64,000 nucleotides of DNA from Antedon mediterranea. Taxonomy: Eukaryota; Echinodermata; Crinoidea; Comatulida; Antedonidae. The stretch is from the NCBI RefSeq assembly GCF_964355755.1, contig NC_092670.1:10663201-10727200 (forward strand), written 5' to 3'. Below are positions 3,735 through 46,457 of this stretch, piece by piece (positions within the stretch are counted from its first letter, which is position 1; each line of letters begins with the position of its first letter). Under the pieces are notes generated by a model, which was not told the DNA's origin, did no database searches, and saw only the letters and a list, made by a program, of their open reading frames with translations. The translations under genes and the position numbers were made by a program.

Positions 3735-4194
3735 CCCCACCATTCCTTTTACCGCAACTCCCCCTCCCCCTCCTGACTTTGGGAATTTTTTAAATGTAGT
3801 TTAAAACCTTCACAGACAATTGCAGTAATTTTGATAGCCATAAGTATGGTTACGTGCAGAAACAGAAATTTGTATAACGAACAGAAAAACACAAAAAGTG
3901 GAAAAAAAGTTTGGAATTTTGACCCATAACATGTATTCAAGATGGCGGATGATGTTCAATATAGTTTAGAACCTTCCCTGTACCATTACGGTCATTTTGA
4001 TACCCCATATGTGTGCAGTAACAAAAATGTGTATAACTAACATACAAACATCAAAGTACAAGCAGATTCATAAGTTAAATTCATACAAAAAGAATTGATC
4101 AAATTTTTGTTTTTTCTGAAAGTGATTTTTGACGCTAATACATTCAAAGTTGAATTTTGTAGTTGTTTATTTGCTTTTTAATATTTATATACTT

Positions 4195-4800
4195 TTACCT
4201 TTACCTTGGAAAATACATTAGCATTCATCTTGTGTTTCCTTATGTCACTAATTTCTTAGATCAAAACCAATATAATAAGATATATAATATGTAGGCCTAC
4301 ATTTATTGTAAGTTTTTATTTAATTTTTAATCATTTCAAAACAAGATTCAATTTAAAAACTACTGCAAATATCCATTGAAAATACTCCTAAAATTAGATT
4401 AAGATTTATGATTAGATATCAATTTGATTTTATTAATTAAAAACAACAATAATAATAATGTTACTATTATGCATTTATTAGCATAGTTTTAAAATATTAA
4501 TTAAATTCTTAATAAAATTAATAATTTTTTTACATTATATTATTTGGTATAATATTTAAAAATGATTAATAACAACAAATTCATTGTTACTATATTATAT
4601 ACTTTAAAATTCAAAATAAAAAATTCCATATAATAAATTTTAAACAAATCACAGTTGATATGACATTGACAATATATTGATTATTAATGTTATAACATTT
4701 GGATTATTATAATAAAATAATTATTTAATGATAAGGCAAAATGATATTCAAAAGAAACAAAGAAGAATCTAAATTATTCAATAATTACAGATTCTGATTT
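4195..4800 (-). repeat. 3' flank of lectin gene A, a family-wide repeated segment
   Basis: AT-rich sequence downstream of the terminal exon on the minus strand. Recognisable relatives lie at 16,661-17,240, 25,020-25,570 (3' of gene B), 19,350-19,600 plus 21,040-21,235 (inside the copy-1-specific segment), 45,620-46,220 and 59,180-59,760. This shared 3' flank shows that all these places descend from duplicated lectin gene ends. No protein coding is visible. Confidence 0.65.
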
Positions 4801-4910
4801 GTTATGGTGCTCTTTTAACCATCATCCCTTCAAAAGCATTCCAGTTGATGCCTTTAGAATCATGTGTATCTGGTGTAAGGTAAATCCCATTCAGGTCTGA
4901 ATCATGAACA
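4800..4910 (-). pseudogene. Spare partial terminal exon next to gene A
   Basis: On the minus strand this encodes SDLNGIYLTPDT, then GINW and MMVKRAP followed by a stop. That is a diverged copy of the last third of the fibrinogen-domain exon lying immediately upstream of it on the minus strand. It lacks the DRDND and GAWW regions and has no visible acceptor of its own. The matching place in duplication copy 2 (46,220-46,450) holds two such tails, about 116 bp more sequence, so this site expands and contracts. It could be a donor cassette for conversion or simply a relic. Confidence 0.7.
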
Positions 4911-4915
4911 TTCTC

Positions 4916-5166
4916 TTATGGTGCTCTTTTAACCATCATCACTGTCTTCTTGAGACTGTTGTTATTATTATCGAAATGATACCAGCTGATGCCTTTATTA
5001 CCAACTGTACCTGGTGTAAGGTAAAGGCCATTCAGGTTTGAATGATGACAGTTATTGTACCACCAAGCACCTTTGTTATACTCAGCACAGTTACTACCAC
5101 TATTCTTATCATTGTCTCTATCATACGTTGTAAATTGGTGACCATTGCTGTGTTCCAAAGAATCAC
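4916..5166 (-). CDS. Gene A exon 5: C-terminal end of fibrinogen domain
   Basis: The acceptor (tttgtttag) and exon start at 5,166 give GDSLEHSNGHQF, in phase with exon 4 (..GTA + G). Next come the calcium-binding DRDND, a cysteine pair (NCAE..., NNCHH), the GAWWYNNC pocket motif and LNGLYLTPGT. The exon ends at TAA 4,916-4,918 after KKTVMMVKRAP. This exon differs from its duplicate at 46,458-46,708 at about 24 of 251 bases, clustered between 4,963 and 5,152. The flanking introns differ by well under 1%. It is the most variable part of the duplication. Confidence 0.85.
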
Positions 5167-5838
5167 CTAAACAAACAAGATAATATTAGATCATCTTTAG
5201 TTTACTTCATAAATCTTAAATTAACATTCATTTTTAAATATTTGTTTTTCTTTGTGTTATAAAATAAAAGATATTTGATATACCAAAAGGGAAAATAATA
5301 ATATACAGTATACCCTAAAATTCGTAATATATTTTATAATTGATTTCATTTATCTGTAAATTGTATGCCATAAATTAAATCATAGCACAATTATATAAAT
5401 AGTTTTTTTTATATGTACTGTATATATATTTTTTATTAACTATTCTTATATCATAGTTGCTTTATTTTAATATTTTATATATTTTGTTTTGTCATAGTTA
5501 ATTTTACTTTAAAAGCAATGCATTTAATAATGAAGAAGAAAGAAGAAAACACAAGTTATATGAAACTGTACTAGATTCACACTATGATTTTTAATTTCAA
5601 TTTCTTTAACTTTATTTTGTGTACTTTTAAATCAGAGTGGTCCTTAGTTGTTATAACTGGCTCCTTTTTGAGGGACCACTGTCTAAAAAATAACTTTAAT
5701 GTGCGAGTGGGCTATGTTATTGTAAGGTACAAGGAGGATTTTTACAACAAAAATTATTTTGGGTAGAGAATTCTATAATTCTGTAGTTACTGGCAGTAAT
5801 TATATTTTGTTATATCTAACCTGTTTGTGCAATTATTT

Positions 5839-6595
5839 AGCAAGCTTGTTTGGATATTAATCATACATATACTGTTGCATTGACTGCCTCATAAATGCCT
5901 ACTACATTAATCATACACATACTGTTGCATTGACTGCCTCATAAATTCCTACTACATTAATCATACACATACTGTTGCATTGACTGCCTCATAAATGTCT
6001 ACTACATTAAAACAAAAATCAGTAAATGTAGTTACTGCAGTAAATGCAGTATAATAATTTTAACATGATCTATTGATAAGATAAGTTGTTGTACTGTGGG
6101 TATGTGAACATTTTAATAGATTCGTTTCAGGCCTGTAAGAAGGAATTGCGAAGTGGGAGGTCCATCCAAAAATGTACTTTATAGACAGTTTACATTCAAG
6201 ATGATCACCTTTGGGCTTTACATTATATTTGAGAAGCGACATCAATTGATAATCAAAAAGTATCAAATGATTATCATTTGTTGTTTAAACTTTTAAATAT
6301 TGTGGTCTAATTATGACATGACTGGCTAAAACATGGGGCTATATGTCACAAAGGCGTAGAAGTTTTTTTTGCATGAGATTCACTTCAATATCATTATTAG
6401 AATTGTTTTGTTCCATTTTCAGATGTTTTTAGAAGCTTTTCTTTTAATGTTTGTCCAATTTCTTTAGCTTTAGTATGTTGCGTATACCGTTATTTTTAGT
6501 CCTACTGTATGGGCCTTGGCTATGATCCCGGATGTTTATAATATGGTGCCTTGTCAAGAAAAGCGGTCATCTATTTGACCTTTGTAATACAAAAA
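5839..6595. repeat. Repeat block with 3-unit 50-bp array (left copy)
   Basis: The block starts 'ttagcaagcttgtttggat', carries three 50-bp tandem units (5,857-6,006; each with 'attaatcatacacatactg' and 'gactgcctcataaat'), and then about 590 bp of shared sequence. A second copy of the block, with about ten units, lies at 10,062-11,200. The two blocks bracket the LINE remnants at 6,612-10,047. The corresponding blocks in copy 2 are 47,382-48,138 and 51,604-52,742. From 5,170 to 5,839 is intron sequence with no other feature. Confidence 0.8.
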
Positions 6596-6611
6596 AATCA
6601 ATATTTTAAAA

Positions 6612-7525
6612 AATTAATTTAAACGATCACAAAAGATCTGAAATATCTAAAGGTAACTTTACAGGTTTGATGGTCCTTGACATACAAAAGGCCTTTGATA
6701 CAGTCAACCATCAGATATTATTGCAAAAACTGGTTCATATGGGCATTGATAAAGAAGAAAGATTGCAAACAAATGACATCAGTAAATGGCGTTCAGTCCC
6801 AACCATGTACTATATCTAGCGGAGTTCCCCAAGGTAGCATTTTAGGACCTCTTTTTTATGTTATATGCTGAAGATACAATATTGAAGTCCAAATCTGGCA
6901 TCATGTAACAACTGGCTTATACTGTAAACAACAAACTATCATTACATCTTGATAAAACTGAGTCAATATTTTTTGGTACTAAAAGAAAACTTAAGAATGT
7001 TCTTGATTTTGCTGTTATTTTTAAAACTAAGTTGATATGTAAGAAGAATATGATCTCATATCTTGGTTGTTTGCTTGATGAAGACCTGTCTGGAGAATCT
7101 ATGGTTCAAAAAGTTCTTGGTAAGAATAATTCAGGACTTAAATTTTTGTATAGACATTCTGCATGTCTAAATTTCTTTTCTCGCAACATTCTATGCTCTG
7201 CACTCATTACCTGTCACTTTGATTATGCATGTTGCTCCTGGTTTCCAGCTGTTTCTAAAAAACTTAAACAAAGACTTCAAAACAGTCAAAATAAAGTTGC
7301 TAGGTCTATAAAATAAATATATAAATAATCGAGCACATATTGGTAAAGACGAACTGAACCAAATCGGTCAATTATTTTTAGAGGATAGAATTTGCCAACT
7401 CAAACTAAATCATGTTCATAAGATTTTTTATGGAAAATCTGTACCTTATTTGACTGAAAAGTTTAAAAGAGTTTCATCTAACCACCTTTATAGGACTAGA
7501 AGTAGTGTCAATGGTTTCAGTTCCT
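6612..7525 (+). pseudogene. Broken non-LTR reverse transcriptase relic
   Basis: Pieces of one RT are visible in shifting frames. GLMVLDIQKAFDTVNH (first catalytic Asp) is near 6,660-6,710 and SSGVPQGSILGPL near 6,815-6,860. A deletion removes the FADD box. 7,032-7,316 carries the thumb, with SYLGCLLDEDLSGE and CHFDYACCSWFPAVSKKLK, and 7,322-7,525 the C-terminal region to a stop. It belongs to a different LINE family from the elements at 1,416 and 8,154. It has several frameshifts and is not functional. An almost identical copy is at 48,155-49,068, so the decay predates the duplication. Confidence 0.75.
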
Positions 7526-7569
7526 AAATCTGATAGTCAAATATCTCAAACTTTTTATTATACAGGCAA

Positions 7570-7953
7570 AAAATATCCACAAACGGTTTCAGATTTTCAC
7601 CAACTGTAAGTTAATCTTTGAGAAAATTCTTTCCGATTTTTTCACACTCGATCCCAGGCCAACAATCGAACGGGCCCACCGAGATGGTAAAAGTATGAAC
7701 GGTAAGCCAAGGCATATCATTGCCCGTTTTCTCTCATACGCTTCTAAGATTGAAGTTATGAAACAACGAAGTTCTGCGCTAGATAGCCAGAAATTTTATA
7801 TCATAGATGATCTTACTGCTGCCGATCTACTGGAAAAAAAGAAATGGAGATCACAAGTAAAAGAGATGTACAATAAAGGTACCAAGCTTCGTTTTACGGC
7901 TGGAAAATGGCGAACTTCAACTGGCATTCCGGTAAACTTTTCGAAATTCCATT
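7570..7953 (+). pseudogene. Fragment of LINE ORF1-like RNA-binding protein
   Basis: The frame reads DPRPTIERAHRDGK, then KPRHIIARFLSYASK and FYIIDDLTAADLLEKKKW, ending at a TGA at 7,953. This resembles the RRM to C-terminal-domain portion of L1/Tx1-type ORF1 proteins (IERAHRxGK, PRxIIxRFLSY, NIYINEDLT patterns). The N-terminal coiled coil is missing. It lies between RT fragments of different LINEs and could come from either. The duplicate at 49,113-49,496 is the same. Confidence 0.6.
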
Positions 7954-8153
7954 GAAATAGTTCCGGTAAACTTTTCGAAATTCCATTGCCATACTAGTGA
8001 TCGGAATGTTGTTGTAAACACTTGGACTGACTAAGAATCTTTTATCCATTATTTTCCTTACATCTGCATACTTTGCTTAATTTGTACAAGCCACTTGATT
8101 GATTTTACATAATAATTTTACAATAGCGTTTTCAGGAGTCTGTTCTCACATAA

Positions 8154-10047
8154 TTGCATTGTCATAAGATGTTTAAATCACTTAAAACCATTTATTCACC
8201 TTTGTTTTATTGTTACCCCCCAATTCTTAACTTGTTTCTTTATATTTACGTTCTTGTACTTTTCTGTTTTTACGTAACATTACCAGGCATCTTTTATTAC
8301 ATACTATTGAATAAACTGATCACTACTTCCCAAAGCAGACCTAGTATTGATTTATGTAAGCTCCCTACGTATTTACCTGCTAATAAACCCCCTAATGTAA
8401 AAGAATGGGAAATGTACAATCAATTAAGAAAAGTTAAAGTAAAAAAGTCCCCGGGCCCTGATAATGTGCCTAACAGATTAATAAGAGATTTTGCATGCGA
8501 ACTAAGCATCCCTATGACTAATATCTTAAATGCCTCCCTCAGTGAGGGTCATGTCCCAACTATGTGGAAAGATGCTATTGTTACTCCGGTTCCCAAAGAA
8601 AATGGTTGTACTAGGGTTGACAAATTTCGACCAATCTCACTTACATGTATCCTAGCTAAGGTAGCTGAGGGCTTCATTAAAAAATGGCTCTTAACAGATA
8701 TCGAGAAAAATCTTGATAACAACCAATATGGTTGCCGTAAACACTTTTCTACAACCCATAATTTGGTTGATCTACTAAATGTGTTCTATGAAGGTAGTAA
8801 CATTCCCAAATCTGTTGGTCAGTTAGTTTTAACTGACTTTAGTAAAGCATTCGATTGTGTTGACCACACAATAGCAGTTTCTAAATTAGTAACACTTGGT
8901 TGTAGACAACAAGTACGCTATAAATCCACCTTATCAATGAGTGTTAATCTAACATGTGGCGTCCCTCAAGGTACGCTCCTTGGGCCTATGATCTTTCTTG
9001 CTCTAATTAATGATGCCATGCAAGACTCGCCATGTAAAACTTTGAAATATGTAGATGATTTGTGCATAGGACAGATAGTAAAAAAGGATGTAATTTCCTC
9101 AATTCAGAATGATGTTGCTTTACTGAATGTATGGTCTAATGAAAACAAACTAAAACTTAACCCAACTAAATGTAAAACTATGTATTTTAACTTTCAAAGA
9201 AATCAATATGAACATGAACCCCTTTTCATTGGTAATGCTACAATTGAAATCGTTAATGAAACTAAGTTACTAGGTTTATGGATACAAGCTAACCTCAATT
9301 GGGACCGTAACGTTAAAGAAATTGTATCCAAAGCCAGCAGACGTCTGCATATATTATGTAGATTAAGAAAGTTCAATCTTCCGAAATTTGATCTTGTAGA
9401 TGTATTTAAGAGTTACATAAGACCAAGTGTTGAATATGCTGTCCCAGTATGGCATTCTAGTCTCACTAAGAAACAAAGTGATATGATAGAATCTGTCCAA
9501 AAAAGGGCTTGCAGAATAATATTGTGTAATGACTACATATGTTATGACCAAGCACTCAATGATCTTTCTTTATACACTTTATCTGATAGAAGGCGTAATC
9601 TATGCTATAAGTTTGCTCTGAATTGTTCAAAAAGTATTCATTTTGGAAAATGGTTTCCAGTGAAGAATGTAAGTAACATGAAACTACAGTAAGACGTGTA
9701 AAGTATCAACAACCCAAATGCAGAGTTGAAAGATATAGAAAAAGTGCAATACCATACCTTATCTCGCTTCTAAATGAATAATCAGTATATATCACCCAGT
9801 ACAGCTTTGCGATTCTTATTGATGCTTTTAGGTGTTTTTTTCTTTTCTATTTTAATATTTTAAGCTAAACTTTTTGAATGTTCCTGTATTGTATTTCTTG
9901 TGTAAATTGCCTCCTTTTTTATATTTTTTTATCATTGGTTTTGTACTTTTATACAAATTTTAATATTGAACAAATGTAAATGTCTTTGTAATTCAGCTAA
10001 GGCTGCGATAATGATATTGAAATAAATGAAATGAAAAAAAAAAAAAA
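8154..10047 (+). pseudogene. LINE reverse transcriptase with long ORF and poly-A tail (copy 1)
   Basis: The ORF at 8,154-9,692 has 512 codons. Residues 1 to about 60 are hydrophobic and probably read-through of upstream DNA. RT homology begins near residue 62, with SPGPDNVPNRL at about 98, FRPISLT, DFSKAFDCVDH at 228, GVPQG at 269 and YVDD at 299-302, then the thumb. Between TLGC and RQQVRYKS about 15 residues usually present before this strand are absent: an in-frame deletion that should disable the enzyme. The endonuclease is missing. The 3' UTR ends with 'gaaataaatgaaatg' and a poly-A run at 10,034-10,047. The RT type resembles the element at 1,416. Confidence 0.8.
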
Positions 10048-10061
10048 TTATGTACCGAATT

Positions 10062-11200
10062 TAGCAAGCTTGTTTGGATATTAATCATACACATACTGTT
10101 GCCTCGACTGCCTCATAAATGCCTACTACATTAATCATACATATACTGCTGCCTCGACTGCCTCATAAATGCCTACTACATTAATCATACACATACTGTT
10201 GCATTGACTGCCTCATAAATGCCTACATTAATCATACACATACTGTTGTATTGACTGCCTCATAAATGCCTACTACATTAATCATACACATACTGTTGCA
10301 TTGACTGCCTCATAAATGCCTACTACATTAATCATACACATACTGTTGCATTGACTGCCTCATAAATGCCTACTACATTAATCATACACATACTGTTGCA
10401 TTAACTGCCTCATAAATGCCTACTACATTAATCATACACATACTGTTGCATTAACTGCCTCATAAATGCCTACTACATTAATCATACACATACTGTTACA
10501 TTAACTGCCCCATAAATGCCTACTACAACATTAATCATAAACATACTGTTGCATTGACTGCCTCATAAATGTCTACTACATTAAAACAAACTAAAATCAG
10601 TAAATGTAGTTACTGCAGTAAATGCAGTATAATAATTTTAAAATTATACCTATTGAATGTCCTTTGACCTTGTGAGTTGTTGCATTACAGAATAGAAGTT
10701 GTTGTTGTACTGTGAGTGCATTTGAACATGTTAGATTTGTTTCAGGCCCGTAAGAACCAATTTTGAAGTGGGAGGTCATCCAAAAATTTACGTTATAGAG
10801 TGTTTAGAGAGTACTTTGCATTCACCTTTGGGCTTTACATTATGTGAGACGTGGATAATAAAAAAATATCAAATGATTAGTATTTGTTGTTTAAACTTTT
10901 AAATATTGTGGTCTAATTATGACATGACTGGTGAAAACATGGGGCTATTTCACAGAGGCGTAGAATTATTTTGCATGAGATTCACGTCAATATCATTATT
11001 AGAATTGTTTTGTTCTACTTTTCAGATGTTTTTAGAGGCTTTTCTTTAAACATTTGTCCAATTTCTTTAAGCTTTAGTATGTTGCATATACCGTTATTTT
11101 TAGTCCTACTGTATGGGCCTTGGCTATGATACCGGATTTTATAATATAATGGCTTGTCAAGAAAAGCGGTAATCTATTTGGCCTTTGTAATACAAAAAAT
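10062..11200. repeat. Repeat block with about ten 50-bp tandem units (right copy)
   Basis: The block begins with the same 'ttagcaagcttgtttggat' start as 5,839. It carries about ten 50-bp units (10,080-10,573; one unit is 46 bp) and then the same downstream sequence with about 10% divergence and small indels. The units are more alike near the array centre than at its edges, as expected for unequal exchange. It contains no spacer/repeat alternation and is unrelated to CRISPR. Confidence 0.8.
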
Positions 11201-11429
11201 AGCTATATATTAAGCTAAATTAGGCCTAAGACTAAAATATCAACAAACGAAAAGTTATTCACGAAAAATGTTGTACCTGAAAACGTTATTTGCAGTATTA
11301 ATTTGAAATCAGTTTCTTTTATTTCTAACCTAAATAATTTCCAAATATTTTGGTCAAATTCAATTTCCGTTCTTTTATTTGATATTTTTTACATGATTTG
11401 CAAATAGAAATAAAATTTATTGCAAAATC

Positions 11430-11690
11430 AAAAATACAGAGATATGTGGTCAAGGACCACTTCATTAAATTTTGGAGGCAATCCGGACCACGCTCTTAAT
11501 TCTGGACCACTTTTTAGTATTATTTTCAAATCTTCAGATGTTAAAAGATAAGACAGAATTTTCAAAAGCCGGCAAGCAGTCTAAAAGTAACAAGTAAACT
11601 GGAATTGGATTGTCCAAAAACCTCATTTTTGTACAAGAGGCAAGAGTTATAATTTGTGATTTGTAATTTTAAAACATAATTTTATTTAAT
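11430..11690. repeat. Dispersed repeat, about 260 bp
   Basis: The segment starts 'gatatgtggtcaaggacca' and ends near 'acaagaggcaagagttata'. It recurs in inverted orientation at 42,826-43,080 and in copy 2 at 52,972-53,232. It is probably a non-autonomous element or a fragment of one. No terminal repeats or target duplication could be fixed. Confidence 0.6.
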
Positions 11691-11758
11691 GTACAGTTTT
11701 TTTGATACGAGTAGTTTTAAAAAACCTATTTTTTTACAAATGTATTGAATGCACTAAC

Positions 11759-12020
11759 CTGCAGTTCCTGTTTATCCACTGATTGTCAACTTATAGTTAG
11801 AGTCCTCAGGACCAATGCCAAAGTGAGAATATCTTGCAAACTTCATTTTGTCTAAGTGGTCCCTCATCTCTACTAAGAGCTCAAAACCTCCGTCAGATGT
11901 TATACGATTGATTTGTTCGTTACCAAGCCAGAACTCTGTGTTCACATTTCCAAAACCCTCTTTGTATTCTAACCAATTACGGTAGAAATCAACTGATCCA
12001 TCTTGTCTTCTCTGTATAAC
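11759..12020 (-). CDS. Gene A exon 4: central fibrinogen domain, with stop codon
   Basis: The acceptor 'attatcag' leads into VIQRRQDGSVDFYRNW, then YKEGFGN, EFWLGNEQINRIT and LLVEMRDHLD, a canonical FReD core. The donor is gttagt. The codon at 11,772-11,774 is TAA, where copy C has TAC (Tyr, in SGYTGTAG). The single differing base is 11,772 (T) versus 53,314 (G) on the plus strand. It is the only difference I found between exons 1-4 of A and C. Confidence 0.85.
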
Positions 12021-12361
12021 CTGATAATGAAATGATCTATACTCTAAAGACTTACTAAAACATTGATGGCAAGCCCATCAACTGGAGTAAATGGAAATAA
12101 ATGAATTAAGAACCTGACCACTAATATTACGATGAAGGTACCATGTGTAAACTTGTGTATTTAACATTAATATAATGAACGCCGAACACTTGGACAGTAA
12201 TCCGTGGATTAGCTTACCACTTGCGTGAACCACGCCAGTCTTGTGCCGTACATGTGAACGTACCCTTAGCAGGGAGTTGTACTCCCTGCCCTTAGTAAGC
12301 TCTGCCAAGGCTTTTGGAATTGCACTTGCTGATATCTTTGAATAGGTTGGCCTATACTTAC

Positions 12362-12498
12362 CGTCCAACCTCCATCTTTTCTCATGTCACAGTATACAAT
12401 TAACCGTGGACCTCCATCAATTTGCCGTATCACATATTCACCACTCACAGCATAAGGATAATGTTGTAAAATGTCACCACAGTCCCTCATAAAACACT
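12362..12498 (-). CDS. Gene A exon 3: start of fibrinogen domain
   Basis: This 137-nt exon begins 'agtgttttatg' after the acceptor gcaattttag and ends at tggacg|gtaagt. It encodes CFMRDCGDILQHYPYAVSGEY and GGPRLIVYCDM..GGWT, the classical N-terminal FReD signature with its first disulfide cysteines. The codon split over its start is completed by the last base of the 16-nt microexon. The intron to exon 4 (12,021-12,361) holds no other gene. Confidence 0.85.
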
Positions 12499-13082
12499 CT
12501 AAAATTGCACAGTTGGCATTGGCATTACACGATCACATTTTGTTTTGAATACGCAATATTTCAACATAAATTGTGAAGGTTTTATTCAGTGATGTAGCCA
12601 CAAGAAATAAAGTGGTGCGGTTGTTGCAAGAAAAAGGAACACTCCCATGTGCAGCCCATGGTTGTCAAAGGCCTGTGGTGAAAAAGTGGTCAGTTTGAAA
12701 CCGTACCTACCTGCCCTGTTATTTCAAAGTATTTTTTAACAAAAAGGTTGTTAATAATGTTAGCATACAATTCATTTTTTTAAAAGAGGATTTAATTTAA
12801 GTTTTTTCAACTTGTTTGCATTGTCGTGAGATGTTTTCCAAGTGATTGTACTAACGTTCTTGTGACCAATGAATCATTCATTCATAGAAAGTACTGATGT
12901 AGAAGTCGGCGACTCTACAATGGACCAGAGACCTGAGTTGTATATTTTTTTTGTCTCCATTTTTCGTTTAAATACTTTACTTACTTGGAGGAATTGGTAG
13001 ACACACGTCATCCTGACATGAGTGAAAGGTAGCCAGTACAGCTAACATACAGCAGATCATGAATGCTTTAGAATACGTTTTA
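12499..13082. other. Intron 2 sequence without recognised feature
   Basis: Part of the large gene A intron between exon 3 and the inverted-repeat element at 13,083. No ORF, tRNA or repeat structure stands out. Confidence 0.4.
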
Positions 13083-14030
13083 CGCCGTGGTTAGGATTCC
13101 GGTACCGGAACTCAACTTCCCACCGTTATGGAATCCGACACGCTATTGCGCATGCCCAGAGCGAAGTAATTATAGCTTGCACTAGTGCCACAGACCACGC
13201 ACCACATTACCCGAGAGTCGGAGTGTTAACTAGGGATGTACTGTGTAGCCAAAGATAGTGTCACTATCTTTGTTGTGGCCTAGTTAGTCGTCGCGCAGGG
13301 GAGAGAGCGATGGATGAAACTTGGCCTAGGCCATACATGAATTAATAATTACGCCACGCGTTAAAATAATTATTATGATATGCGTATTTCAAGAAATGTA
13401 CGAAAATGAATAGCGTAGCGTTGCGAAACCGACTTCTTCCGAACAGTTTTTTTTTCACATCCGCCCGGCGGCTGCTGTCAACAAATCAACTTGTATACGA
13501 TTGCATGATGTTATGTACAGTATATAAGTGCGTTATATAAAATCTTTTATTTTGTACTTGAAAAATCATAAAAATTAAAACTAGTCATGTAATTATAATT
13601 CATAATTATATAAAGTTTATATATGAATTAAGCAACGACTTTTTTAATTACGAAATAAATAGGCCCAATGGTCACATCTAGCTGGTAGGCCTACTAGTAT
13701 TAGTAGGCATGTAGGCCGGCTAGTTCGCCATGGCGCAGCTATTAAAATGATCGATCGCTGTAAAGCTTGGTTCCCACTAGAACGTAACGCAAGTGTTTTA
13801 ACCAATGACAAGCGAAGTTATAGACAGTTAGCAATCACAAGCGAATAAGCCATCGCTTGTGATTGGTCAATTCACTTGCGTTACGTCCTTGTGTCGATAG
13901 TGGGAACCACGCTTTAGTCTGTAGACAAAAATAGAGTCGCTGATTACCTCGCTCTGGGCATGCGCAATAGCGTGTCGGATTCCCTAACGCTGGGCAGTTG
14001 AGTTCCGGTGCCGGAATCCTAACCACGGCG
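13083..14030. mobile_element. 948-bp MITE-type element with long terminal inverted repeats
   Basis: The ends are inverted copies of about 95 bp, starting CGCCGTGGTTAGGATTCCGG. They include 'gcgcatgcccagagcga' and its complement 'tcgctctgggcatgcgc'. The left flank is TA. The right flank is TT here but TA in the duplicate (55,573-55,574), which fits a TA target duplication as in Tc1/mariner-type elements. There is no transposase ORF; open frames within it are by-products. A palindrome (aaagatagtg/tcactatcttt) is at 13,253-13,273. The duplicate is 54,625-55,572. Confidence 0.8.
13762..13917. mobile_element. Nested palindromic mini-element, about 155 bp
   Basis: The ends are inverted ('aaagcttggttcccacta' versus 'tagtgggaaccacgcttt'), and the interior is also largely self-complementary around 'atcacaagcgaat'/'cgcttgtgattg'. 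It sits inside the 948-bp element. Related end sequences occur at 41,472-41,520 and 43,785-43,885, so it belongs to a dispersed family. The duplicate is 55,304-55,459. Confidence 0.7.
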
Positions 14031-14538
14031 TTCATTTTATGTTACATTTCTTGAAAGCTCACTAAATACAATTGACAGGTTATTTTCATTTAACTAGATT
14101 AGAAAAGTATGCAGTCAAACGACAAGTATTATGTTGTATTTTCACCTGATCTACCTTGCAGTGTATTAGAAATCGCCAAGTTTCTAGCCATAGGCAAGTT
14201 ACTATCACATGTCTAATAGAGTGTTGTTTTGTCTCATATTTGATCAATTGATAATTTTCAAAATAAAATCCATTTTACATACTTGTTTATTTGCCATAAT
14301 AAATACTATTTTTAAAGTTCATTAATTTTTACAATTATGAAAGTATTAACATTTCAATTGATACTTTGGAAAAAAAAGTGACCAATAAAGAAATTAAATC
14401 TAATAATAGCAATAGCATATTTCTAGGTAACTTTGATTGTTATATTCTATAGGCATTCTCACCTTTAAATGGCTGACCAGTAAAAATATTAAAAATAGAA
14501 GTTTAATTTTATATTGTTCTTTGTTGTTGTTCTTTTAG

Positions 14539-14859
14539 GCTTGAAGCTTCTTGGATAAGGACTATAAACCATAGGTCCAGTGTACACAACTTGCTCGTGT
14601 GCACTTTAAAGAACCTAGTACATCTTTCGAGACGAGTAGGGGGTTACCCCGGTGTATTAGTACATCACAGCCACTGATTACCAACTGGGCCCTCTGGGAG
14701 ACCAGTCTTTGACTGAAGAGGTTAGCCAGTATAAATATATATTTCAATCAAGCCTACATATCACATGTTAAATGTTTAAAAAATAAGCATTATTATACTG
14801 TAATTGTGGGTGTCTTCCATTGTGTCCTAACCAGCTGGTTTATACTGAGATATTTCAAA
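14539..14859 (+). pseudogene. Exon-like module 1 split by a SINE-like insertion
   Basis: The acceptor (tgttcttttag) and the first 11 nt are at 14,539-14,549. The rest (gtgggtgtcttcc... to the donor gtaagt) is at 14,805-14,859. The 253 bp between contain the SINE-like repeat. The uninterrupted version is at 588-658. The same split exists at 57,056-57,376, so the insertion predates the duplication. Confidence 0.5.
14552..14757 (+). mobile_element. SINE-like short interspersed repeat
   Basis: The segment contains 'gtgcactttaaagaaccta', 'gagtagggggttacccc', 'accaactgggccctctggga' and 'gaggttagccagtataaat'. I associate this arrangement with SINEs of marine deuterostomes, from memory and not verified. 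There is no clear tRNA A/B box in this copy. It interrupts exon-like module 1. The duplicate is 57,069-57,274. Confidence 0.5.
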
Positions 14860-15149
14860 GTAAGTTATAATAAGTTCTAAACTTACTTATATAATAATTT
14901 TAGTAGTATTTTTTTTTTTTCAAAAGTCAATTTGTGCTGTATTTTGACAATTGTACGGCCATGGAAAACCCTTTTTGTGAAGTAACTTATGTCATTTGAA
15001 GTGTACAGAGGTCATAATTGATTTGTCTCTAGTTTTTTTCCAAGCATAGTTTATTCCATTTCCTTGTGACAATGTGGCAGCACTAAAAAAATAATTCAAT
15101 ATTCCAATATTCTCTTTTATTATATTATATGGTGATGATATTGTTCAAC

Positions 15150-15250
15150 AAAGTGCTTATTTTGTATCCCATTCCATTCCATCATTGTATTGTATTTGTA
15201 TATGTTTTGTTTTATTTTGGAATAAAAATGTTTATGATTGATTGATTGAA
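15150..15250 (+). mobile_element. Short retroelement 3' tail
   Basis: A 'ttggaataaaaatgtttat' stretch followed by GATTGATTGATTG repeats looks like the 3' end of a severely truncated LINE. Nothing of its coding region remains. Confidence 0.35.
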
Positions 15251-15300
15251 AATAAATGATTATTGTCCCATACCGAATTACCTCTTTCAATCTCTTTTAG

Positions 15301-15425
15301 AAGACTGTTTATACAATACAGAACAACAGTTATTTAAACAGCTACAACGATTCTGCAGAACACCAAATATTGTACGTAACTATGACAGAAGTACACTGAA
15401 TGAAATCACTGCAAAATGTAGCTGA
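15301..15425 (+). other. Exon-like module 2 (unknown protein), shorter version
   Basis: The acceptor 'caatctcttttag' is followed by an open phase-1 stretch reading DCLYNTEQQLFKQLQRFC and NYDRSTLNEITAKCS, ending at TGA 15,423-15,425. Joined to module 1 (14,859) the frame is kept. The family is not recognised. The duplicate is 57,817-57,945 and a longer version is 2,797-2,963. Confidence 0.3.
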
Positions 15426-15652
15426 ACATCTCTCAAGCAACAATATCTATCAGTGCTTTCAAGTCAAGAATCATAATGGTGTATCACAATTTTCAAGATA
15501 CGTAATTGGCTTGAATGGTAAATGAACTTATAATATTTATAATAAGAATTTAGTTGAAATGCGCTGATACTGCGATATGAATGTTTATATTAACATTTTG
15601 ATTACTTGAATACTGCCATATAGCCAATGACTGCTCTACTAGGCAAAAAAAC

Positions 15653-15859
15653 ATGTTAAATGGCTTTAAAATAGCTCGCATTTTAATTTCTAAATGCTCC
15701 AGCATGTCAGTTGTGGAAAAATATCCAGTCATCAAAGTGTTGGTAAATGGCTCTTTGGAGAAATTAACAATAAACAAAATGATCGGTCCGGTTGGCGAAA
15801 GATCCAACTTCAAGAATAGATCTCTGAAAGGTCATATATTTCATTGGGATCATCCATAA
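15653..15859 (+). other. Small open frame of unknown nature, not conserved in copy 2
   Basis: 68 codons containing SKCSSMSVVEKYPVIKVLVN and ending at TAA. In the duplicate the stretch 'gtggaaaaatatcc' reads 'gtgaaaaaaatatcc', which shifts the frame. This argues against a maintained protein. No motif is recognised. Confidence 0.2.
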
Positions 15860-15933
15860 TCAAATGAGGATTACTATCAAGTATAGATAGAAGGCAATGT
15901 TGTTGTATCAATGCCAATCTTTTTTTATTTATT

Positions 15934-16191
15934 TTACAGTGTGTTGTAATGTGTTTTGAATAGTTTGATTATTTCATTAGGTTTTTGAATCCTTAATTGA
16001 GAAAATATGGGTCGCGATTTATTATCAATTATACACTGATCTAAGATGTGAATGTTCTCAGTTTTGTAGAATCTACAAAACTGATACTTTAAATCTACAG
16101 ATTTTCTCTGTGTTGAAGCGAGTAGCGCACCGACACAATTGGGAATCAACGACGGGGCAATGGCCGCTTTTGACACATCGTTAATATACAA
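15934..16191 (-). other. Conserved 85-codon open frame, unknown
   Basis: The frame is extended upstream as PCHRIPHLYINDVSKA after a possible acceptor (ttggtag, near 16,219). It continues through NCVGALLAS and YQFCRFYKTENIHILDQC to a TAA at 15,934. Composition is protein-like and the frame is intact in both copies (58,452-58,709). I do not recognise it. It could be a terminal exon of another gene nested in gene A intron 2, or a relic. Confidence 0.3.
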
Positions 16192-16660
16192 GTGAGGAAT
16201 CCTATGACATGGATTTACCTACCAACTGGTTCTACGGATTCTGTAGTTTGCAAAAGAGTATGTAACTTAACTGAAAAACAGTGAACTTTGATGTACCGGC
16301 AGTGGGAACTTTACAATGAACATTGAGTAGAAGAAAGTCCAGCCCAAATGATGTTATACTCATAGTATTATTCAGGTCCTAGCCAGGGGAAAATTTATGG
16401 TTCGGGAGAACCCCTTGACGTTAGCATTGAACGCAATTTAAGCTATCCTTAGTCGCTTGTGTTTACCTGTGAAAAAAGTATGCTACAATCAAAATGTTAT
16501 TTGCAAGTGTGCTATTATTATCATTTTCGGCCAACTAGTGGTGCCATTTATCATGATTTTACGTGCAAGATTACCATTTCCGGTCATCTAGGATTGTCAT
16601 TTAACAAAATTCGCTTTGCTACAGGCCCCACTACATGAAAAATGAAAGTTTTTCTTAAAT

Positions 16661-17277
16661 TTACTTTCACCTTGACCTTGAAAAATACATCAACATTCAT
16701 CTTGTGTTGCTTATGTCAGTAATTTCTTTGATCAAAATCAATATATTAAGATATATAATATGTAGCCCTACATTCATTGTAAGTTTTTATTTCATTTTTA
16801 ATCATTTCAAAACAAGATTCAACACATCATTTAACAACTGCAGTGAATATATATTATTTAAAATACTCCTAAAATTTGATTAAACTACTAATTATCATTA
16901 ATGAAAATATAAGAAATACTGATTTATGATTAGATATCAATTTGATTTTATTGATAATTAAAAGCAATGAATAATAGTAATGTTATTTTTGAATAAATTG
17001 AAATAATAATAAAATCGATAATTTTATAAAATAAATTTAAACAAATCACATTTTTGGAAATATTATTTGACTATTAATTTTATAACATTTTGAATAAATA
17101 ACTAGCTTTTATTATAATAAATTAATAATTTAATGATAAAGCAAAATGATATTTAAAAGAAACAAAGAGGAATCTTTGTTATTCCTATTACTATTATTAT
17201 TCATAAGTCAAATTATTCAATAATTACAGATTCTAATTTCTTTTATGCTGCTCTCTTAACTATCATAACTGTTGTTT
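16661..17277 (-). pseudogene. Relic of a lectin gene 3' end inside gene A intron 2
   Basis: 17,243-17,277 reads TTVMIVKRAA and stop on the minus strand, the last residues of the FReD terminal exon. It is followed by about 580 bp resembling the 3' flank of gene A at 4,195-4,800. The rest of the exon is missing. So another lectin gene end once lay directly downstream of the PAN exons, and the present gene A may be a composite of two units. The duplicate is 59,180-59,795. Confidence 0.6.
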
Positions 17278-17657
17278 TATTTTTAATATTTTGATAGCAA
17301 GTCCGGCCTAGGCAGGCAGGAATTCAACGTGAATATGGAACCAATAGATAGATAGAAAGTTTCAATTTTTTCTCAAGTTCTTGAGTGCAGATCAATTGTC
17401 AAAAAAAAAGTGAAAATTATTATGTGCAAAAGGAAATGTCTCTAAAAAAATGTTCAGCTCTAATAAGCAAATAAGTTTAGCGGTAGGATTGCAACAATTA
17501 GGCCTATTCACAGAGTGAAGCATTACATTTGTTGATACAAACAATTTCCTAGGCAGAATTAATAGCAACAAAATATACCCATCAATGATGATGTGAATAT
17601 CCATATAAAAAATACTGTTTTTATTTAATAAAGGAGTTTGCAAAGTTGTATACTTAC

Positions 17658-17673
17658 GCTTTTTGACCAGGAC
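17658..17673 (-). CDS. Gene A exon 2: predicted 16-nt microexon
   Basis: Sixteen nucleotides between 'cattttcctttag' and 'gtaagt' on the minus strand. They add V-L-V-K-K and one base, which completes a codon with the first two bases of exon 3 to give ..Q-C-F-M. In gene B the homologous donor (gtaagtataaa) directly ends the PAN exon in the same phase. This supports a true donor here, with an intron gained or exon split in A/C. Splicing is inferred only. Confidence 0.5.
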
Positions 17674-17799
17674 CTAAAGGAAAATGAAATAAAGTATAGT
17701 AGTAGTTCAACATTTATTTATTTCTATCAATGGTACAATGATAAGAAATCATATAAAAACATTGTAATATTAAACAATAGGCCTACAACAATATCATAT

Positions 17800-18362
17800 C
17801 TTGCAAGAAGAAATTACTTGAAGGAAATGTAATGAAATTGTTAGCCCCATCAGTTTGAAGTCACGCCCACTATGTAGTTGCATATCAACGCAAGATTAGA
17901 CGTAATTATGGTCCTTGTATGTAAAAATGTAAAACTTTTACCAATACATTATTCATTTTATTGCCAATATATTCAGTTTTTCTGTGATTCTTAATACATT
18001 ATTTTTATTTACTAAATTATTTACTAAATAAAGTTAGCTGTTTCAGGTCAATCTATAAACATAAAACACGCTATCAATTTAATGTATTGAACCCGAGATA
18101 AAATAACAAGCTGAACAAACAATTCTGAAAATTTGTAAACTTTAAACTCAATTTTATAATTACATTAGATAGCACAATCAAACTAAATCGTACCAATTAG
18201 TCAATTAAAAAAAATTGGATCTAAATTTGACTGGTAACAGATTTACAAACTTTTGAAGGCCTAATAGAAACACCTGTACATGCATCTATTGAACTAATTT
18301 TTGTTTTTGTTGAAACATATTAAAACACATTAAAGTTGTTCATTTCATGAGTACTCAATTAA
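17800..18362. other. Intron 1 and flanking non-coding DNA
   Basis: AT-rich sequence between the microexon and the PAN exon. No repeat, ORF or RNA gene can be supported. Confidence 0.4.
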
Positions 18363-18389
18363 TCAGTTGATGCTCAGAACATCACTCAC

Positions 18390-18674
18390 CTGATTAATGT
18401 GATTCAAATGAGACGCTTGAATGTTGTTGTTTTCAACTGATGTTTCTTCCAGTATTTTTTTACTGATTTGACAAACACGATATTTCTGGTTATAGTTGAC
18501 CGACAAGCAATATAATTTCTCGGAACATTCCAGCAAACAATTTACACGGCTTATATTCTTCAACTCGTAACTCCAACCATCAAGAGCCTGGCCTCGTATA
18601 ACTGTATAAAATGAATTGGTCGAAAGAACACTGACGACAAAGGGCAGAAGAAAGACAATCAAAATAGTATGCAT
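18390..18674 (-). CDS. Gene A exon 1: signal peptide and PAN/apple domain
   Basis: The start ATG at 18,674 gives the hydrophobic signal peptide MHTILIVFLLPFVVSVLS. A PAN/apple-type module follows: LKNISRVNCLLEC, LYCLSVNYN and VCQISKK, with the usual Cys spacing of CLxxC...C...C. The exon ends at AATCAG|gtgagt in phase 0. PAN modules mediate protein or carbohydrate contacts, here placed N-terminal to the lectin domain. The exon is identical in protein to copy C (60,908-61,192). The gene B counterpart has a frameshift. Confidence 0.85.
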
Positions 18675-18728
18675 TGCGACGTTTTAGAAATGTGTTTCTG
18701 TACAGTTTTGGTGTCAATGAATTTCTTA

Positions 18729-18735
18729 GTTTATA
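18729..18735 (-). promoter_or_regulatory. Possible TATA element for gene A
   Basis: TATAAAC on the minus strand lies about 55 nt upstream of the start codon, and the same holds in copy C (61,247-61,253). It is absent from gene B. It is one short motif in AT-rich DNA, so the call is weak. Confidence 0.2.
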
Positions 18736-19125
18736 CTAATATGAACTGTTCCATCATCCAACCACTTCAATAGACAACTCAGTGCACCAATCAAAACGGT
18801 GATAGTAATATATGATTTACATAATAATGTATGAACAAAAATTAAGAATATAGAAGATACATTCATTGCATTTTTAAAAATAAATTTGGTGATATTGAGC
18901 TTCATGTGTCTAGGTAGGCTTCAACTTCATCGTTATGAGTTCTCACAATCATCATGTAGATTATTATGGAAATAATTCAGCAACAATGTCGTGTGAATGA
19001 AATATTGTCCCTGTAGTGAAATATACTTAATACATTCATTCATTTTAAAGTACTGTATATGCATTTAATTTACCATTTAATGTGTACCTCTGTTGTAATA
19101 AAATCACAGCCATGCTTTAAAGCTA

Positions 19126-19355
19126 ACATAATTAAAACAATAATGAAAATATTAACAATCATATATCAACAAAACGATTTTTACAGAATGATCCACAAAG
19201 ATATTCGGGAGTTATCCATGTTGAACACCCTTTAATGACCTAATATATGTACGTTATCCATTACATTTGTTGTCGTTCTCCAGCTCTGTAATTTTGATTC
19301 CAATATTTACAGTTACATTTTCTATGGTTACATCGTTATTGTACAAATCTAATTA
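19126..19355 (+). repeat. Direct repeat R1 flanking the copy-1-specific segment
   Basis: About 230 bp ('acataattaaaacaataatg' to 'caaatctaatta') recurs at 22,097-22,322 (R2), which lacks four bases ('tatatgtacg' against 'tatacg'). Duplication copy 2 has one such repeat (about 61,644-61,873) with the R1 version of the marker and R2-type sequence to its right. Confidence 0.85.
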
Positions 19356-22096
19356 TTTTATTAATAAAAACGATAAATAAAACGATTAATAATAATAATG
19401 TTAATTTTATATATGTATGAGCATAATATTTTGATAAATTATTGTAAACACAGTTGTGAACATATTATTAGATATCCTCGTGTATAATCCCACCCCTACT
19501 GATTTTACAAACAGGCATATCTCCGGGTATAGTCCCAGTATTGACTTTTGGCCACTTCAGATGAGTTTTTACAATAAATGCTTAACAGTTATTTTTTTTC
19601 ATAAAGTGGTTTACCCGGGTATAGTCTCATGCCCAAAGTCGGCCCAACTTCGTGTTTTAGCGGCATGAAATTATACCAGAGGATATATGGTAATAATAAA
19701 AACATGTTCATTGTTAAAAGTATCTATATATAAATTATGGTTAATTCTGACATAGGCGAGCACAATGCAAAAACTTCGGTACAAATCTCCGCCTTGGATA
19801 CCTACCTTATCTATCTGAGATGTACCGCGAAACGTAGATTTGATAACATTAGTGTTCACGGCGACGCTATTGTTCCATATTTCTATCTTAGGAAGATATT
19901 ATAAAGAGTTTTTTAACACAATTTATGATTTCAACATTAGATTTTCATCTCAATTTCAATTCTTCCCGGTCAAAGTAATTTCCGGGTTTAAGATAAGTTC
20001 ACCTGGCAACAACCTGGTATCAAATATTTTCTCTCTTTTATACACAAGGGAGCAGTTAAAATAATAGATTTGACCCTAAAGGTGACTGGAGACAGGCACT
20101 TTCCATCAATCAATACAGTGTCCCTTAAGTTGGCCATTAGTCATTTCCATTTCAGTTTTTTGTTTATTTTAAAACATACCGCGCGTGTGTGAAGGTACAG
20201 TAGTTAAATAATAGGAATTATACTGCAAATTAATAAATATCAAATTAAATATACGCCATAAAGAATCAGAATATATTGTGGGGAATAGTATTATAAAATT
20301 ACATAGGGAGATTTGATGATAAGACATTTTTCGAGTGAAATCCCGATAGCTGAGCTTTATTGAGTAAGCTTGCAGGAATAACTGTAGGCTATCTTCCTGT
20401 GTCCCGTTAGGACCGAGATGTCTGCCCATGTTGCAAGCCGTAATGTCTTCTTTCTTGGGCCCACTCTGTCACGGCAGTTAGTTTCAAAAGATGATTAAAT
20501 TAAATAATGTATTAATAATTATTAGGATGGTATTCATTTGAATAAACGCCTCTCCAATAAAACATCACTTTGAATAATAACCCCCCCCCCCAACCCAACT
20601 ATCTAATAAACGTCCATCCACATATTTATAACAACACAATTATACTATTTGTAGTAGAATTCACCGCACTGTTATTTACAATTTACCAAGCATTTGTTAT
20701 TCTTTTTTAGCACTTTTCATATCTATTAGAGGATTTCATTTGATTATAAATGTTACCATATTATTAAAACTACAAAATTTAACATATATCCCTCGAATAT
20801 GCACCTCCCTCAAATGACCTCCGCCTCCCCAAAGGGCCCTACCAAACAAAAAAAACTATACTTTAAAATGTTATTAATTATCTAAAACACTGTGAAACAA
20901 AGTAGTTTAGATTTACGAATGTCAAGCATTTTCAATAATGGTAACCGACAGAAAAACGTATAAGGAGAACATTATCATTCCGAGAACCATCGTCTACACC
21001 TCCTAGAGGGGGAGCGAGCGAAGCGAGCTCACCCTCTAGTTATAACAATTAAAATAATAGTAAATCAATACAAAAATAAATCACAGTTTATTTGATGGGA
21101 CAATGTTTGATTTAGAACATTTGGATTAAGTAACTAGCCTTTATTATAATTTAATGATAAGGCTATAATGTATAATAGATCTGAGAAACAAAATAGAAAT
21201 CTATCCTTATTCCCTTTATTCATAAGTCAAATTATTTATTTATTTATTTATTTATTTACCAGATTTCTATAGCGCCCTTTTCATGAAAACTCATGCTCAA
21301 AGGCGCTTCACATCATAAAGACAAACATCATAAGCAATAATTATAAAAGTAACCTCAAATTATACGAAATAAGATTTCTTAAACTAAGTTATAAATATTC
21401 TTACTGTACATTAATTAAAATCGCATAAAATAGAAAAATAAAATGAACGATATACAAAATAGGTCGGAATTTCTTAAACTACGATTACAAAAATACAATT
21501 TATTTACATATTAATTATTATTTAATTTATTTATTTATTTATTTATTTATTTATTTTTTTAAATTTTAATTTAATTTAATTAAATTGATTAAAAATTAAA
21601 AATATTATTGCACAATAATTGACCAAACAAATTGCAGTAGAAAAATACAAGATTACAAAAATAGGCATCAATATACTATATTCAAATTGAAATCAATCAT
21701 TGTTGTAGTATGACACAAATAAGTGTGTTTTAAGTTCCCCCTTAAAAATGTTCAAGGAAGAAGCACTGCGGAGCTGGTATGGAAGAGCATTCCATAGAGT
21801 CGGCGCGGCCTTCATGAAACACCTTTCACCATACGATTTGTTTTTAACTCTAGGAACACATAAAGTAAAAGAATCCTGTGATCGTAATGGCCTATTTGGT
21901 TGATAAAGACAAACATCATAAGCAATAATTACAAAAGTAACCTCAAATTATACGAAATGAGATTTCTTAAACTAAGTTATAAATATTCTTACTGTACATT
22001 AATTAAAATCGCATAAAATAGAAAAATAAAATGAACGATATACAAAATAGGTCAGAATTTCTTAAACTACGATTACAAAAATACATTTTATTTATT
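19356..22096. other. Copy-1-specific segment, about 2.74 kb between direct repeats
   Basis: This is absent from duplication copy 2. It contains sequence matching the 3' flank of gene B (19,350-19,600 like 25,040-25,320; 21,040-21,235 like 25,378-25,570) without the exon itself. It also has a C10 run at 20,581-20,590, a minus-strand LINE 3' end (21,235-21,900) and an internal direct repeat (21,318-21,505 and 21,903-22,090). Other open frames in it look random. Confidence 0.7.
21235..21900 (-). mobile_element. LINE 3' end (C-terminus of RT and 3' UTR)
   Basis: Reading on the minus strand from 21,900: PNRPLRSQDSFTLCVPRVK, then TLWNALPYQLRSASSL and FKGELKTHLF. This is the typical C-terminal tail of CR1/L2-like LINE polymerases. 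A 3' UTR follows, ending 'aaagggcgctatagaaatct' and a TAAATAAATAAA tail (21,235-21,260). Everything upstream in the RT is missing. A second ATTT run is at 21,523-21,555. Confidence 0.75.
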
Positions 22097-23929: not shown

Positions 23930-24930
23930 ACAAAACAAACTTCATTAACCACTAATGTAACACTAATATAAATTTAACCACTAACGTACAGTAGAAAATG
24001 TTGAGATATGTTTGGACTTAAATATTCTGTATTTTTTTGCGGAAAAATTCTTTTAAGTTGGAAATCTTTTTTGTTCAAGTTCAATTTTAATCCTGTGTGT
24101 TTTTTACAAACCTATGTTTAAATTTGTGCAAATACATCTCTTTACTTAGCTATCAGTCTCCACCTTTCGTAAAGCGACCGACTTTAAAAAACAGCCATCT
24201 CGTAAGTAACCACCTCCTTAAAACGACCATATATCGATATGATGCCAGTGTTATTATAATTATGTACCTGGTGTAAGATAAAGGCTATTCAGGTTTGAAC
24301 GATAACAGTTATTGTACCACCAAGCACCTTTGTATTGCTCAGCACAGTTACTACTGCATTTCTTATCATTGCCTCTGTTGTATGTTGTAAATTGTTTACC
24401 ATTGTGAATTGATGCCAAAGAATCACCTAAACTAAGCGGCAATCTCTCTCTATGGTCTATTACGAGAGGTGGTGGTCCTTTGGAAGAGGTGGTCGCTTAC
24501 GAGTTGGTTGATCATGATAAGCTTTCCCTAATGAGAGGATATGGTCGCTTACGAGAAGTGGTCCTTTAAAAGAGGTGGTCACTTACGAGAGGTAGTGGTC
24601 GTTAAGAGAAGTTGTTCCTTAGGAGAGGTCACTAACGAGAGGTGATGAACGTTTAAGAGAGGTGGTCACTTATCAGAGGTGGTCGATTATGAGAAGCTTT
24701 CTCTTAGAGAGAAACGTTGTCAGTATATTAGCCAAAAAAGTCAAAGATTTTAGTTAAGTTTAATTTAGTTAAATGTAAAATTATTTTTCCAGTTAAAGAG
24801 AGCTGATAAACTCAGTTCCTAGATTTCCAACTTTCAAAACAAAAAATATGTTGAGTTTTTAAAAGATTTCTTAACATTTTGTCCTGTTGTTACGTTAGTG
24901 GTTACATTTTCTGGTTAACATTCAACTTGT
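23930..24930. repeat. Foldback element with unequal arms, about 1 kb
   Basis: The left arm (23,930-24,245) runs 'aaccactaatgtaac', 'aagttggaaatct', then GACCACCTC-type units. The right arm (24,445-24,930) has the same three parts in reverse order and complement: 'gaggtggtcgcttacgag' units, 'agatttccaactt' and 'gttacgttagtggttac'. Between the arms lies a fragment of a lectin terminal exon. The left arm alone recurs, with many more units, at 63,450-64,000. Confidence 0.75.
24260..24426 (-). pseudogene. Lectin terminal-exon fragment at the centre of the foldback
   Basis: From an intact-looking acceptor context (cctaaac on plus) the minus strand reads [20 protein letters not shown], then [20 protein letters not shown] and LYLTPGT, and stops. 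It is closest to gene B exon 5. The calcium motif is altered (DRDND to NRGND), and the last 25 or so codons are missing. The homologous position in copy 2 (about 63,790) has no exon, so it arrived here after, or was lost from, the other copy. Confidence 0.8.
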
Positions 24931-28527: not shown

Positions 28528-28640
28528 CTAAAATGTACAAAGTTTGATGTGTTTAACACATCAAACTATATTTTAGTAATTTTATTAATACATTTAGGCC
28601 TACTCAATTTTGTATTTAAACTTTGTACTTTCAGAGAAAA

Positions 28641-46450: not shown

Positions 46451-46457
46451 CATTCTC

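Follow-up and report, generated by a model that had tools for sequence, protein, structure and literature searches.

Why should two gene copies that are almost identical over some 14 kb differ in the short exon that ends the protein? The question is raised by a stretch of 64,000 nucleotides from the crinoid Antedon mediterranea (here called the window, whose positions are used below unless a contig is named). Within it, and at other places in the genome, near-identical copies of a lectin gene differ almost solely in the terminal exon, and there are loci at which the flanking sequence switches at this exon. We consider it probable that these genes belong to a large PAN and fibrinogen-related family whose terminal exon, which bears the Ca2+ site and the S1 pocket, is exchanged by recombination or short-tract conversion and is under diversifying selection. 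The original prediction, made from two genes in the window, describes a real phenomenon that is both wider and stronger than was claimed.

Genes A and C in the window

Gene A is read from the minus strand as a PAN_1 exon, Fibrinogen_C exons and a terminal exon. The N-terminal exon (18,363-18,683; an open reading frame with PAN_1 at 24.6 bits, cut-off 21.4) has a hydrophobic start, which by itself is what suggests that the lectin would be secreted, and the exon is found with 100% identity at four places in the genome, A and C among them. The first Fibrinogen_C exon, with approximate limits of 12,386-12,532 in the open reading frame 12,266-12,532, scores 21.3 bits and thus just below the PF00147 cut-off of 22, and the exon preceding the terminal one ("exon 4," 11,775-12,020, placed by tblastn), our control exon, scores 99.3 bits (E 3.7e-28). 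The coding part of the terminal exon (exon 5), stop codon included, occupies 4,916-5,166, as given by its open reading frame and an acceptor AG at 5,167-5,168; it is the hypervariable C-terminal end of the Fibrinogen_C domain (80.8 bits, E 1.7e-22). A scan of the four exon pieces at E 0.1 returned PAN_1, Fibrinogen_C and a sub-threshold DUF5121, and no Ig domain. In the intron between exons 4 and 5 there is, on the plus strand, an open reading frame of 512 amino acids (8,154-9,692), termed retrotransposon-type on account of its reverse-transcriptase-like letters and of its original designation as a LINE frame. A tandem repeat of ~50 bp stands on either side of it (5,856-6,010 and 10,059-10,584), in A and again in C.

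The terminal exon of C, the paralogue of A, lies at 46,458-46,708 (minus strand; alignment to A and sequence), and that of a third gene, B, which belongs to flank clade c7, lies at 25,627-25,877 (minus strand; limits from sequence, protein match at C1:10688830-10689057). Just upstream of a Fibrinogen_C exon of B is a long tandem array (28,636-30,282) with shifts of ~70-80 bp and ~75-90% identity between shifts. Partial copies of the terminal exon follow downstream on the same strand. After A there is a copy of the 3' half (4,802-4,915), in frame after the stop as judged by eye; after C, copies of the 3' half occupy 46,226-46,457 (alignment and sequence), one unit of ~118 bp more than in A; and after B, an extra partial copy (24,236-24,435; self-BLAST and sequence) retains the acceptor side.

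In pairwise alignment, the terminal exons of A and C differ by exactly 24 substitutions in 251 bp, the number first given as approximate, and all of them lie in the span 4,963-5,152 where they had been said to cluster. They change 17 codons, in line with the estimate of about 17 of 80 residues, and every change is a replacement, with silent codon changes numbering zero; the DRDND motif and the cysteines are unchanged, as had also been noted. The alignment within 5,235-19,359 holds 26 other substitutions over ~14 kb (~0.2%), and the binomial probability of 24 of 50 substitutions landing in 251 bp is ~5e-29. By this comparison, which was fixed beforehand, exon 5 and its surroundings are not equally diverged. 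The retrotransposon-type reading frame differs by four substitutions between A and C, and a single substitution, at 11,772, falls across the exon intervals 11,772-12,077, 12,266-12,532 and 18,363-18,683; both counts agree with those claimed for this frame and for exons 1-4. The equation of the divergence island with the terminal exon was less exact: the partial copies adjoining it downstream (in the minus-strand sense) differ as well, with four substitutions at 4,869-4,889. Mismatch is again 0.4-0.8% in 250-bp bins at 4,000-4,750, and the alignment ends below ~3,730. At 14,220 in A and 55,764-56,737 in C, gene C is longer by ~970 bp, an insertion or deletion in an otherwise near-identical stretch.

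Exon-confined differences across the family

The A/C pattern is general and not special to these two genes, as it recurs in other copy groups, one of them distributed over three contigs. A protein search of the genome (354 Mb, 18 contigs) with the terminal exon gave at least 150 matches (150 of 188 candidates scored), the strong ones mostly in C1:10.0-11.85 Mb and further ones in other parts of C1 as well as on C3, C4, C6 and C10. Our sample consists of the 75 best of the 150 matches, fetched with their flanks; the remaining 75 were weaker or partial matches and were left out. Sixty-one of the 75 terminal exons are distinct and 74 are open, the sole one with a premature stop being that of L003 (C1:10.297 Mb, clade c0). 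Their alignment of 110 columns comprises 59 framework and 23 hypervariable columns (entropy >1.6 bits), with 28 sparsely filled columns in neither set, and the consensus of the frame is roughly GDSL..HNGQQFTTYDRDNDK.S..NCAE..KGAWWY..C..SNLNGLYLTPGT....GI.W..F.....SLKKTVMMVKRAP. Clades were defined by grouping the loci according to the intron adjoining the terminal exon; the nine members of c1 have nine different exons, the six of c3 have six, and the six of c2, which holds A and C, have three.

How closely the differences are confined to the exon can be seen in L053 (C1:10.60 Mb) and L066 (C1:10.11 Mb), ~490 kb apart, which differ in 21 columns of 9,863 bp. Twenty of these columns lie inside a 98-bp tract of the exon and amount to 14 substitutions and two in-frame 3-bp indels, leaving a single difference in the remaining 9.6 kb. 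The c3 copies L020, L051, L059 and L065, on C1, C4 and C10, have 0-2 mismatches per 400 bp of intron and 1-4 over ~700 bp of 3' flank, and 20-29 in the exon (mismatches plus gaps). Three pairs compared over 7-9 kb show a background of 0-5 per 250 bp (~0.6-0.8% in summed bins) and one peak, at the exon, of up to 32 per 246. Four lectin blocks on three contigs (L076-L079; C10:12325000, C1:9044000, C4:14784700 and C1:11840700) share ~98-99% identity over ~7-9 kb, and a mobile element may have carried the dispersed c3 blocks (C1, C4 and C10; aligned over ~7-9 kb).

Among the 31 pairs in which each flank differs by ≤1%, exon mismatches number 0-3 in 22 pairs, 14-29 in 9 and 4-13 in none; these pairs are not independent, since loci recur, and the 9 divergent ones come from seven c1 and c3 loci. 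Because no low-flank pair has 4-13 mismatches, the exon appears to change by steps rather than gradually. The c5 loci and L026-L028 of c0 have identical exons although their flanks differ by ~1%, and exchange is therefore not general. One alternative to exchange is that point mutations and diversifying selection have acted on their own after duplication. It fails on the bimodal exon distances, and it fails on L053 and L066, where 14 substitutions and two codon indels would have to be set against a single mutation across the remaining 9.6 kb.

All comparisons are drawn from one assembly, and the pattern could in principle be an artefact in which near-identical repeats were collapsed or misjoined, or both haplotypes placed in tandem. 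The many near-identical copies and the repetition of the exon order in separate stretches (for example, ~10.17-10.30 and 10.66-10.82 Mb) would be in keeping with such errors. An artefact is nevertheless very unlikely in our view, given that 74 of 75 exons are open, that the observed indels preserve the frame and that the pattern is repeated on C1, C4 and C10, and even allelic pairs would have their differences in the pocket codons.

Silent-cassette conversion of the vls or pilin type relies on silent donors beside the variable gene, and the partial exon copies downstream could serve as such local donors for gene conversion. At least one partial copy is present within 900 bp at 39 of the 75 loci (scored as presence or absence, the per-locus numbers being counts of BLAST pieces), including 5 of the 6 loci in the hypervariable c3, and A and C differ in their partial copies as well as in the exon. 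In c1, however, which is likewise hypervariable, only one locus of nine has a partial copy and eight have none, while c5 and part of c0 have partial copies yet identical exons. Furthermore, the partial copies represent the 3' half of the exon, and the tract that distinguishes L053 from L066 is in the 5' half. Local cassette donation is disfavored, as c1, among the two most variable clades, mostly does without partial copies, and we regard it as extremely unlikely.

Exon 5 history and gene history

If the exons had diverged together with their genes, silent changes in the exon should track the flanks, and in c1 and c3 those of exon 5 do not. In the control exon 4, pS is 0-0.021 within c1 (L042, L053 and L066) or within c3 (five loci) and 0.175-0.197 between them; L067, with a c1-like intron, is separate in this exon (pS 0.105 from c1 and 0.28 from c3). 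In the framework of exon 5, the 15 distinct c1 and c3 exons give a pS of 0.068 within clades (51 pairs) and also 0.068 between clades (54 pairs), and 2133 of 5000 shuffles of the clade labels gave a difference as large as the one observed. Framework pS stays at 0.05-0.07 in every filtered class of intron divergence up to 4% and is 0.106 at 4-7%; filtered classes were used instead of the unfiltered intron and flank divergences, which above ~6% include gap-rich non-homologous alignments and were excluded as distances. Of the silent framework minor alleles that segregate within c1 and c3, 11 of 11 also occur outside their own clade, where ~50% would be expected by chance; because two sites are linked in each clade, we put the P value of this sharing at ~0.0005-0.002. 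The sharing is not universal, since clade c11 has one silent codon that is absent from all other copies. The exon 5 tree, of 17 rows, has c1 and c3 intermixed, and c3 as a single clade is rejected with a p-AU of 0.003, a rejection that weakens to a p-AU of 0.058 without the chimera L069. The silent variation of exon 5 in c1 and c3 is not tied to the host gene, and a framework silent divergence of ~0.07 next to introns with none is a further point on which point mutation and selection alone fail.

A fourth such point is the existence of chimeric flanks. Upstream of its exon, L069 (C1:3.02 Mb) has the c3 context, with 1 mismatch in 1,500 bp to L059, and downstream it has the c1 context, with 19/1,484 mismatches to L066; past the exon edge the two contexts have no mutual homology. 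L067 (C1:11.21 Mb) is its near-reciprocal, being c1-like for 300 bp upstream (3/297 to L042) and c3-like over ~950 bp downstream (8/952 to L059, with one gap), and in L043 a third upstream context is joined to the c1 3' flank. Homology common to the contexts starts ~44 bp upstream of the exon, and an exchange between contexts would therefore lie from there on. At L081 (C1:11209866-11212508), the terminal exon of L067 is followed by two truncated copies with a repeated 3' flank, a unit of ~1.2 kb, as if by unequal exchange.

We infer exchange or conversion because the near-invariant framework and the ~44 bp of intron provide homology between flanks that are otherwise unrelated. The terminal exon would then evolve as a separate pool of interchangeable parts, through unequal exchange and short-tract gene conversion (tens to ~150 bp) between paralogues and perhaps alleles. 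Diversifying selection would retain new pocket codons and favor exchanged exons while the framework of the exon is purged, and the likely purpose would be a germline repertoire of lectins that differ in binding specificity.

At the level of the codons within the exon, shared identity at the variable codons of far copies, as observed over expected, is 1.68 for adjacent codons, 1.35 at 9-15 and 1.00 at >50, although the fall with distance is uneven. A greedy tiling of exons from far copies is weakly positive, with 17.7 pieces versus 20.2 in shuffled columns, and it leaves 7.2 novel codons versus 4.4. A PHI-like incompatibility test on a 100-bp scale detected no clustering (the permuted value was no higher than the observed one in 919 of 1000 permutations, in 881 for third positions and in 704 for the framework), and it is counted against exchange here even though it may lose power if exchange is very fine. 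Among pairwise identical runs, none was above the null maximum, the mean run being longer than the null (15.8 versus 11.1). The search for a donor of the L053/L066 tract among the 61 distinct exons gave at best 10-12 mismatches over 102 bp together with a gap of one codon, and in a genome search with the L066 exon none of the 40 of 99 candidates scored was above 93%, the exon itself excepted. The lack of silent change between A and C also counts against exchange, as sequence taken from a diverged donor would often carry silent changes along. One way to reconcile these negative results would be that the donors are alleles or copies absent from a single assembly and that exchange is very fine-grained.

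The binding pocket, selection and known systems

Aligned to FIBCD1, the hypervariable columns 39, 51, 77 and 89 correspond to Tyr405, His415, Tyr431 and Trp443, with an alignment that is gappy around 431-443. These four residues are described as lining the acetyl pocket of FIBCD1 (PMC3908420), and the chance of finding four of four pocket residues among 23 variable columns out of 82 is 0.005. Asn413 and Asn399 are also in variable columns, and the Ala432 column is outside the variable set. D393, D395, Ser397, C401 and C414 belong to the framework, and in the columns for D393, D395, C401 and C414 (21, 23, 35 and 50) the 61 exons have D in 58, D in 61, C in 59 and C in 60. The family does not have the conserved S1 acetyl pocket of Tyr405, His415, Tyr431 and an aromatic residue at 443, all four positions being hypervariable. 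What varies is therefore the binding site, and the variable pockets may bind different ligands.

In eight pairs of distinct exons with zero intron divergence, pN is 0.357 at the variable codons, and the framework has a pN of 0.042 and a pS of 0.068. Taking c1 and c3 together, H in the variable codons is 0.43 for the first base and 0.38 for the second but only 0.010 for always-silent third bases (T/C), for which the framework value is 0.033. Because the silent third bases are nearly fixed, it is amino acid change that is kept and random local mutation is not the driver in c1 and c3; untargeted hypermutation is a poor fit for the same reason. Over all 61 exons, the first and second bases of variable codons have an H of 0.52 and 0.49, and always-silent third bases one of 0.151 in variable and 0.088 in framework codons. 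Of the framework minor alleles that are confined to either c1 or c3, 12 of 12 are replacements, and there are 17 private variable codons in c1 and 18 in c3. These patterns support what appears to be strong diversifying selection on the pocket codons. It had been proposed at the outset that the binding surface is diversified by selection, conversion or both, and there is now support for both, from the replacement excess on the one hand and from clade-independent silent variation in c1 and c3 and flank switches on the other. The replacement excess at zero intron divergence (0.36 versus 0.07), the 17 replacements and no silent change between A and C, the 12 of 12 private framework alleles and the negative PHI-like test would all suit selection on point mutations without exchange, but in view of the four failures described above we find that explanation distinctly improbable.

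The pocket codons might instead be rewritten by a targeted mutagenic or programmed mechanism, germline or somatic. Such a mechanism would account for change limited to a small part of a single exon when the copies are identical elsewhere, and it draws support from the close donor that was not found for the L053/L066 tract among the 61 distinct exons and in the genome search, from the private variable codons of c1 and c3 and from the somewhat higher H of always-silent third bases in variable codons across all exons. That the T/C third bases of the c1 and c3 variable codons are almost constant, that silent framework A bases are mostly retained and that many recent duplicates have identical exons speak against it, and we judge it distinctly improbable as well. 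A small chance may be given to the bolder form of the proposal, in which dedicated germline or somatic machinery would rewrite the ~23 pocket codons in single steps and without a genomic donor, as an adaptive-like invertebrate repertoire. DGRs act through adenine-specific changes copied from a template repeat; with the silent framework A bases mostly retained and codon indels present, A-targeted mutagenesis of this kind is a poor fit.

For exchange under selection, which we favor, chicken-type and lamprey-type copy mechanisms are parallels, and the diversification of binding sites on a constant frame may be somewhat comparable to that of antibodies. The nearest precedent would seem to be ASSET, the exon switching of snake toxins, in which exon segments change faster than introns by a mechanism that the authors call unknown (PMC2474615). 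As there described, short specificity-setting exon segments outpace the introns in a multigene family, and here too exon segments are changed between copies while introns are conserved. The protein family is a different one, however, and the lectin change is limited to the terminal exon; moreover, unlike in ASSET, there are many copies on several chromosomes, and the chimeric flanks and decoupled silent variation point to ectopic recombination.

Among lectins, FIBCD1, the ficolins and tachylectin 5A have the same domain region by sequence, with the Ca2+ aspartates and the cysteine pair in common with the present family. Their acetyl pocket is reported as conserved, Trp443 being Tyr in some (PMC3908420), whereas in the present family it is hypervariable. 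The FREPs of Biomphalaria glabrata are a large fibrinogen-domain defense family for which gene conversion and point mutation have been reported, with diversification described as somatic (PMC3313920, PMC7588048). The C-terminal FBG domain of FREPs is called relatively conserved, and a PAN/Apple domain is mentioned for a few mollusc FReD genes (PMC7588048). FREPs carry N-terminal IgSF domains, whereas the N-terminal domain found here is PAN; unlike in FREPs, it is the FBG ligand pocket itself that varies here, as seen in one assembly. The sea urchin Sp185/333 genes resemble our family as a large invertebrate immune family, and gene conversion and recombination have been suggested as sources of their diversity (PMC1988830). 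According to that report, diversity is overall higher in the intron than in the exon, and what distinguishes the genes is which elements they have or lack; in the present family, members of a clade share a constant intron, and the variation is in codons set in a fixed frame. None of the open-licence papers listed for FReDs named a pocket exon that is hypervariable and passes between paralogues.

In conclusion, the family offers a clear natural case of a binding-site exon with a history separate from that of its gene, including in L053 and L066 a pair so young that what is seen is close to one single event. Two questions thereby become testable: what moves short exon segments, left open for the exon switching of toxins, and by what means invertebrates assemble large recognition repertoires in the absence of lymphocyte-style rearrangement. 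The family also provides a FReD case in which the acetyl pocket has turned into a variable surface.
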